A stretch of DNA of 64,000 bases, from positions 1,335,137 to 1,399,136 of the forward strand of contig NZ_CP021106.3 of the NCBI RefSeq assembly GCF_000355765.4. Reading direction: 5' to 3'. The notes below the pieces were generated by a model. It was given only the letters and a program-made list of their open reading frames with translations, did not search any database and was not told where the DNA came from. This document shows positions 17,279 through 18,159 of the stretch, in pieces. This DNA comes from Nitrosospira lacus. Lineage in GTDB: Bacteria > Pseudomonadota > Gammaproteobacteria > Burkholderiales > Nitrosomonadaceae. Both the position numbers and the translations under genes were made by a program. Within the stretch, counting starts at the first letter, position 1, and every line of letters starts with the position of its first letter.

Positions 17279-17932
17279 TTATTGCAGTGACGCGAAAATG
17301 GTGTCGCGGATACTTTCAACCGATCCGACCCCCGCTATTTTTATATACCTGGGGGCGCCAGTTCCACCGTTGGCTGACCATCTCGAATAGTATTCTACCA
17401 ACGGTTTAGTCTGGCTGTGATAGATTTCGAGCCGCCTTCTCACGGTCTCTTCCTTGTCATCATCACGCTGTATCAGCAACTCACCCGTCACATCATCCTT
17501 GTTATCCGTTCTGGGTGGATTAAATATCACATGATAAATGCGACCCGAGGCCGGATGCATGCGGCGTCCCGACAAACGCCTGATGATCTCCTCGTCGGAG
17601 ACGTCAATTTCAATTACGTAATTGATGGGTACGCCTGCGGCTTTCATTGAATCCGCCTGGGGGATGGTGCGAGGGAATCCGTCAAACAGAAACCCTTTCT
17701 TGCAATCCGGCTGTGCGATGCGCTCTTTAACCAGATTGATTATGATGTCGTCGGAGACCAGTCCGCCCGCATCCATGATTTTCTTGGCCATAGTGCCCAG
17801 CATGGTGCCTGCCTTGACCGCAGCACGCAACATATCGCCGGTCGAAATCTGCGGAATGCCGAAACGTTCCTTGATATAATTGGCCTGTGTGCCTTTTCCC
17901 GCGCCGGGGCCGCCTAATAGGATGATAATGAT
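17279..17932 (-). CDS. adk: Adenylate kinase, without a canonical start codon
   Basis: The coding frame gives 217 residues if it begins at the ATC at 17932, which aligns with the usual initiator position; E. coli Adk has 214. It contains P-loop [32 protein letters not shown] and the long LID domain with [18 protein letters not shown]. It catalyses ATP + AMP = 2 ADP. In this frame a TGA (17945-17947) is followed only by AAA GGG GGA ACA ATC ATT ATC ATC before the P-loop, so no ATG, GTG or TTG is available. The next ATG (17833) would remove the P-loop. Either ATC/ATT initiates behind the AGGGGGA ribosome site, or one base of the G5 run is extra: removing one G fuses the ATG at 17948 in frame. 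Confidence 0.93.
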
Positions 17933-18159
17933 TGTTCCCCCTTTTCATATAAGGTTCTCCCTGATATTGCGGGGAGAATGAGAGGTGTCTGTTCATTGGT
18001 TTCGGTGATTATAGCGCAGCAAAGATGAAAATCTGAAGTTTTTACCATGATTTACCGCAATAGCAAGCGTGGGTTAAGGAGTCGAAAATGTCAGCGGCTG
18101 CCGGACCTTGAGCAAGCTGATCATATGTACCGCAGCACCGGACGATCAAGAGTAATGAT

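Follow-up and report, generated by a model that had tools for sequence, protein, structure and literature searches.

Start codons of the type AUH (AUU, AUC or AUA) are very rare in bacteria. Their best-known example is infC, the gene for initiation factor IF3; pcnB of Escherichia coli was reportedly described by Binns and Masters in 2002 as translationally limited by its AUU start. The three codons owe the label non-canonical to discrimination by IF3 (PMC4611024), and weak pairs at the third base are excluded by the same factor (PMC10158994). AUU starts occur in E. coli infC and pcnB (PMC4245954, PMC1780047), which one study of this organism sets apart as its AUU genes (PMC4245954). In Staphylococcus aureus, infC and ccpN start with AUA and cvfC1 with AUU, and these starts have extended Shine-Dalgarno sequences. 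Reporters carrying the AUH codon (AUA or AUU) of cvfC1, ccpN and citZ reached about 10% of the AUG level in poor medium; the ccpN reporter rose to as much as 30% in rich medium, and the medium had no effect on that of cvfC1 (PMC13009471).

The adk gene of the Nitrosomonadaceae is well supported, by comparison of its 5′ ends, as a further member of this small class. It would share with infC (AUU in E. coli, AUA in S. aureus, and ATA or ATC in the family itself) an AUH start against which IF3 discriminates, but it encodes a metabolic enzyme, so that a direct autoregulatory loop of the infC type cannot apply, and regulation of adk by IF3 is a proposal. Like E. coli pcnB, it would be a gene other than infC that is read from AUU; it differs as a gene and in its lineage, and the pcnB start has been described as limiting. 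With staphylococcal ccpN (AUA) and cvfC1 (AUU) it has in common a conserved AUH codon behind a strong Shine-Dalgarno sequence (PMC13009471), whereas those two genes belong to Bacillota, encode a regulator and a small protein, and have starts demonstrated by ribosome profiling and reporters. The adk start is assigned from sequence, as is the AUU start proposed for lepA of Borrelia burgdorferi and Bacillus licheniformis; the lepA proposal names two genomes (PMC1780047), whereas the AUH codon of adk is fixed in a family. In the literature searched, most subscription journals lying outside its reach, no report of an AUH or other non-AUG start for adk was found.

The adk locus of Nitrosospira lacus

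The window (the whole stretch of DNA analysed, 64,000 nt of the Nitrosospira lacus genome) carries adk on its minus strand. The frame runs from an in-frame TGA (17947-17945) to the stop codon (17281-17279), and the codons following the TGA are AAA, GGG, GGA, ACA, ATC (17932-17930), ATT (17929-17927), ATC, ATC, CTA, TTA and GGC. There is no ATG, GTG or TTG in this frame between the in-frame stop and the P-loop, which confirms the codon-by-codon description given in the sequence-only reading; the first canonical start in frame is a Met codon located past the P-loop. The product is nevertheless a full-length adenylate kinase with P-loop and lid, scoring 362 bits against NF001379 (cut-off 268) and also matching TIGR01351 and, above cut-off, PF00406 (ADK) and PF05191 (ADK_lid). 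A second, normal adk is ruled out by the single match across the whole 3.26 Mb genome. The features of the locus are as follows.

17279..17929, minus strand: adk coding sequence from the putative AUU start, with stop codon at 17281-17279 (open reading frame; NF001379, TIGR01351, PF00406 and PF05191; sole match in the genome)
17927..17929, minus strand: ATT, the favoured start codon (counterpart of the ATA with which sister lineages start; best register in 23 of 23 genus members)
17930..17932, minus strand: ATC, second candidate start, more likely the end of a conserved spacer (AATC-ATA); ATC in 23 of 23 genus members, and at profile position 1 if the protein length is kept
17937..17943, minus strand: Shine-Dalgarno sequence AAGGGGG (in-house score 17)
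17945..17947, minus strand: in-frame TGA bounding the adk frame (read from the sequence)
17946..17948, minus strand: out-of-frame ATG, not conserved and incidental (ATA in locus L002, CTG in L003)
18008..18037, minus strand: promoter-like site of adk, TTCAGA - 18 nt - TATAAT (10 of 12 consensus matches)

The genes for valS, adk, a 6-phosphofructokinase-like protein and a membrane pyrophosphatase-like protein (names from reading of the open reading frames) are consecutive on one strand between 13648 and 20964, a row that brings proteins making AMP and pyrophosphate next to proteins that use them.

The Shine-Dalgarno score of 17 lies above both the median (8) and the 90th percentile (13.3) of 538 long open reading frames of N. 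lacus, for which the first ATG was taken as the presumed start. Its strength is no special compensation, since adk genes of outgroups that start with ATG have the same median score as the family (14 in both); four adk loci score only 7. Spacing to the second leading codon (codon 2, ATT in the window) is 7 or 8 nt in all 23 loci of the N. lacus genus, and in the other genera it is 6 nt in 81 of 99 loci and 5 to 8 nt in 97 of 99. Of the 121 family loci, 109 have an exact TATAAT 35 to 130 nt upstream; the mean number over 100 single-base shuffles was 8.2.

Many of the leader folds show stem-loops ahead of adk, but the mean folding z-scores are only -1.0 for the genus and -0.75 for the other loci, energies near those of shuffled leaders, and no structured leader is claimed. 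Within the adk leader of the window (17955-17978), CU-rich TTCTCCC has two potential pairing partners, a downstream GGGAGAA and the Shine-Dalgarno sequence. With regard to the initiator tRNA, ARAGORN, run on 60 of 80 stretches of 20 kb (window excluded), predicted one tRNA with anticodon CAT.

Start codons in the family and its outgroups

An adk match was present in 121 of the 125 family genomes searched (the others being G059, G078, G083 and G094), and the start position was read in all 123 family loci, AUH being scored as AUU, AUC or AUA at the homologous position. With one locus per genome, and the N. lacus genus counted at codon 2, the start is ATC in 47 genomes, ATT in 40 and ATA in 34. 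A non-canonical, infC-like start at ATC or ATT behind the Shine-Dalgarno sequence AGGGGGA had been suggested from the window itself, with comparison of the adk 5′ end in relatives as a check; that comparison supports the suggestion and extends it to the whole family, AUH occupying the start position in all 121 genomes with a match.

If the first leading codon is counted instead, over all 123 loci, the figures are ATC 67, ATT 37, ATA 18 and ATG 1. Second adk loci were seen in two genomes: a fragment in G124 (L203), and L202 of G079, which sits on a contig of 3093 bases (G079 C32) in a genome marked 6% contaminated. The only ATG is that of L202, a copy that is 45% identical and probably foreign; the other copy of the same genome (L168) is AUH.

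In 84 of the 122 AUH loci (85 of 123 with L202 included) the frame is free of ATG, GTG and TTG from the in-frame stop to the start position. A GTG occurs within four codons upstream in only five AUH loci, two codons upstream in L023 and four codons upstream in the Nitrosomonas-type loci L156, L184, L187 and L188, and these five may start canonically. In 33 other AUH loci a canonical codon is found farther upstream in frame. The GTG of the four Nitrosomonas-type loci is perhaps a return to a canonical start. The same four share GTGAAAGAA before the AUH codon, with no clear Shine-Dalgarno sequence before its GTG.

All adk starts read outside the family are canonical. A wider contig search gave 80 adk loci, 66 with ATG and 14 with AUH. 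The 66 are the loci from outside the family, all of them ATG (66/66), and the 14 carry family names or are identical to a family genome in their first 300 bases, the exception being L031, a locus labelled Gammaproteobacteria whose start region resembles that of Nitrosomonas. By identity over these first 300 bases, Nitrosovibrio tenuis, Nitrosovibrio sp. Nv4 and a Nitrosospira MAG correspond to genomes of the N. lacus genus, and Nitrosomonas nitrosa, a Nitrosomonas ureae MAG and an uncultured Nitrosomonadaceae to family genomes of other genera. A second set of 150 genomes drawn from the order contained 144 with an adk match, 139 of them outside the family; starts were read in 47 of the 139 and all 47 were canonical, none lacking a canonical start, although these loci may overlap with the 66 of the first set. 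They comprised 27 loci with 25 ATG, one GTG and one with ATG five codons upstream, and 20 loci, chosen mostly for short open frames, with 16 ATG, two GTG and two with ATG one codon upstream.

A quick tree, built from 184 adk sequences (65 outgroup genes with ATG and 119 family members) without their first seven codons, requires a single change between AUG and AUH, and the branch leading to the family has modest support (72). Among family members this codon has exchanged A, C and U at its third position on at least 14 occasions (10 if the N. lacus genus is counted at codon 1 rather than codon 2) and has never gained G. For comparison, 24 sites within the first 100 codons used are fourfold degenerate in every row; they show a median of 27.5 changes, and at every one of them some genomes have G. 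The start codon thus varies at its third base about half as often as these sites, but not to G.

Proposed initiation at the AUH codon

It is quite probable that the AUH start of adk is really used and is weak. In the mechanism proposed here, adk would be translated from the AUU at 17929-17927, 7 nt behind the strong Shine-Dalgarno sequence. An ancestor of the family swapped AUG for AUH, and AUU, AUC or AUA persists in all sampled descendants. Because the initiator tRNA mispairs with the third base of these codons and IF3 discriminates against them, the adk mRNA, in spite of a good promoter and a good Shine-Dalgarno sequence, would be throttled at start selection; good promoter, good ribosome binding and a poor start codon form the layout expected of such throttling. 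Output of Adk would be low for its mRNA and may drop as IF3 activity rises, as for infC. The sequences themselves show the lack of a canonical start, the fixation of AUH in the family, the register, a single origin on the tree and no reversion to G; we infer initiation at the AUH codon, its low efficiency, its sensitivity to IF3 and any benefit to the cell, and general knowledge of such codons is what makes weak, IF3-sensitive initiation the expected behaviour at adk. Such a start codon suggests that synthesis of the enzyme is limited or controlled where translation begins.

Given a used and weak AUH start, the chances that adk is regulated through IF3 appear about even. A little below even odds stands an arrangement that has the AUH start in common with the preferred explanation, but in which this start only cuts Adk output by a fixed factor, with no IF3-dependent regulation. 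The description of E. coli pcnB as translationally limited by its AUU agrees with a fixed reduction. So does the AUU of S. aureus cvfC1, which is unresponsive to the medium (PMC13009471). The retention of a consensus -10 box and a strong Shine-Dalgarno sequence would be odd if a constant low level were all that is needed, but this is not decisive.

The position of the start can be narrowed further. All 23 genomes of the N. lacus genus, its own included, have ATC at codon 1 and AUH at codon 2 (ATA 17, ATT 3, ATC 3). The genus is nested among lineages that start with ATA (clade support 94). In ungapped comparisons of 19 bases with these sisters, running from the Shine-Dalgarno sequence on, a mean of 13.4 bases is identical in the register of codon 2 and 7.8 in that of codon 1, and codon 2 gave the best of four registers tried in 23 of 23 genus members (examples are AAAAGGGAGAAGAATC-ATA in L109 and AAAAGGGGGAACAATC-ATA in L002). 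Of the two codons offered by the sequence-only reading, ATT at 17929-17927 is therefore favoured over ATC at 17932-17930 by the comparison with ATA-start sister lineages, and the latter keeps a minor share of the probability. The simplest history for a start at codon 2 would be loss of the Arg2 codon.

A start at the first AUC (17932-17930), in which Ile would take the place of Arg2, is rather unlikely, even though this codon falls at position 1 of the adk profile, would keep the usual protein length and is invariant in 23 of 23 genus members. MAFFT, with the coding part included, also aligns codon 1 with the ATA of the sisters, placing a gap near the Shine-Dalgarno sequence; the nesting of the genus and the ungapped register (13.4/19 for ATT/ATA against 7.8/19) stand against a start at this codon. 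Spacing does not separate the candidates, since both the 4 nt of ATC and the 7 nt of ATT are common in the N. lacus genome (10% and 12%, respectively, of 231 scored genes).

Other candidate AUH genes and the possible meaning of the adk start

The start of infC, assigned by eye to the homologous position in 30 family loci (120 genomes have a match), is AUH in 30 of 30 (ATA in 29 and ATC in one, L208), and in N. lacus it is ATA. The N. lacus genome was also screened blindly for frames with coding signal upstream of their first canonical start codon, over 1313 gene-like open reading frames in 1.664 Mb (51% of the genome), a design that misses AUH starts with a canonical codon close by. Only four frames scored above 8: adk at the top (14.1), a sugar-nucleotidyltransferase-like gene (11.7), infC (8.8) and one small frame (8.8). 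An earlier pass (1.264 Mb, 989 frames) gave the same top three. The small frame, which ties with infC, is at G000 C1 731931-732236 (minus strand) and has 77 aa after its first Met. The nucleotidyltransferase-like gene (G000 C1 198651-199499, minus strand) has ATC behind AAGAGGAAACTTCT and no canonical start near its N-terminus. It was compared in loci L294-L323 (28 of 30 alignable) and fails as a second conserved AUH gene: of the 27 relatives aligned with it, 26 carry an ATG 6 to 9 codons upstream, and L305, like G000 itself, has no canonical start there.

These results bear on the idea that start selection is relaxed throughout the genome, adk being one of many AUH genes. It would be in keeping with the AUH start of infC and with the second rank of the nucleotidyltransferase-like gene, with its Shine-Dalgarno-like sequence before ATC, but it is improbable in view of the four high-scoring frames among 1313 and of the upstream ATG in nearly all relatives of that gene.

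Least of all can the start be put down to a sequencing error or programmed slippage in the A4G5 run, with one G fewer bringing the ATG at 17948 into frame as an ordinary start: the window does have the homopolymer run and an ATG with an AGGGAG-like sequence upstream, but this alternative to a non-canonical start, also raised in the sequence-only reading, has a negligible chance because the nearest relatives lack that ATG (ATA in L002, CTG in L003) and share the frame without a canonical start, because in many loci of other genera, where GGGAGA replaces the G5 run, a canonical start is likewise absent, and because AUH is found throughout the family. The comparative data are taken to refute it already, as a finding of four G on resequencing would leave the relatives unexplained.

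The preferred reading, a used and weak AUH start of adk, has several consequences. Annotation limited to ATG, GTG and TTG would start N. lacus Adk after the P-loop. Fixation of AUH in the whole family, with outgroups that keep AUG, amounts to a clean evolutionary experiment on start-codon control, and the enzyme affected is the one that balances the adenylates. Beside infC, adk offers a specific second target for testing IF3 discrimination in organisms that live on little energy; that the two form a small IF3-controlled set in the ammonia-oxidising Nitrosomonadaceae is a tentative and somewhat doubtful extension. If the proposed mechanism is true, selection of the AUH start would tie the enzyme that balances adenylates to the state of the translation apparatus, and the family would have rewired its energy metabolism through the start codon of a single gene.
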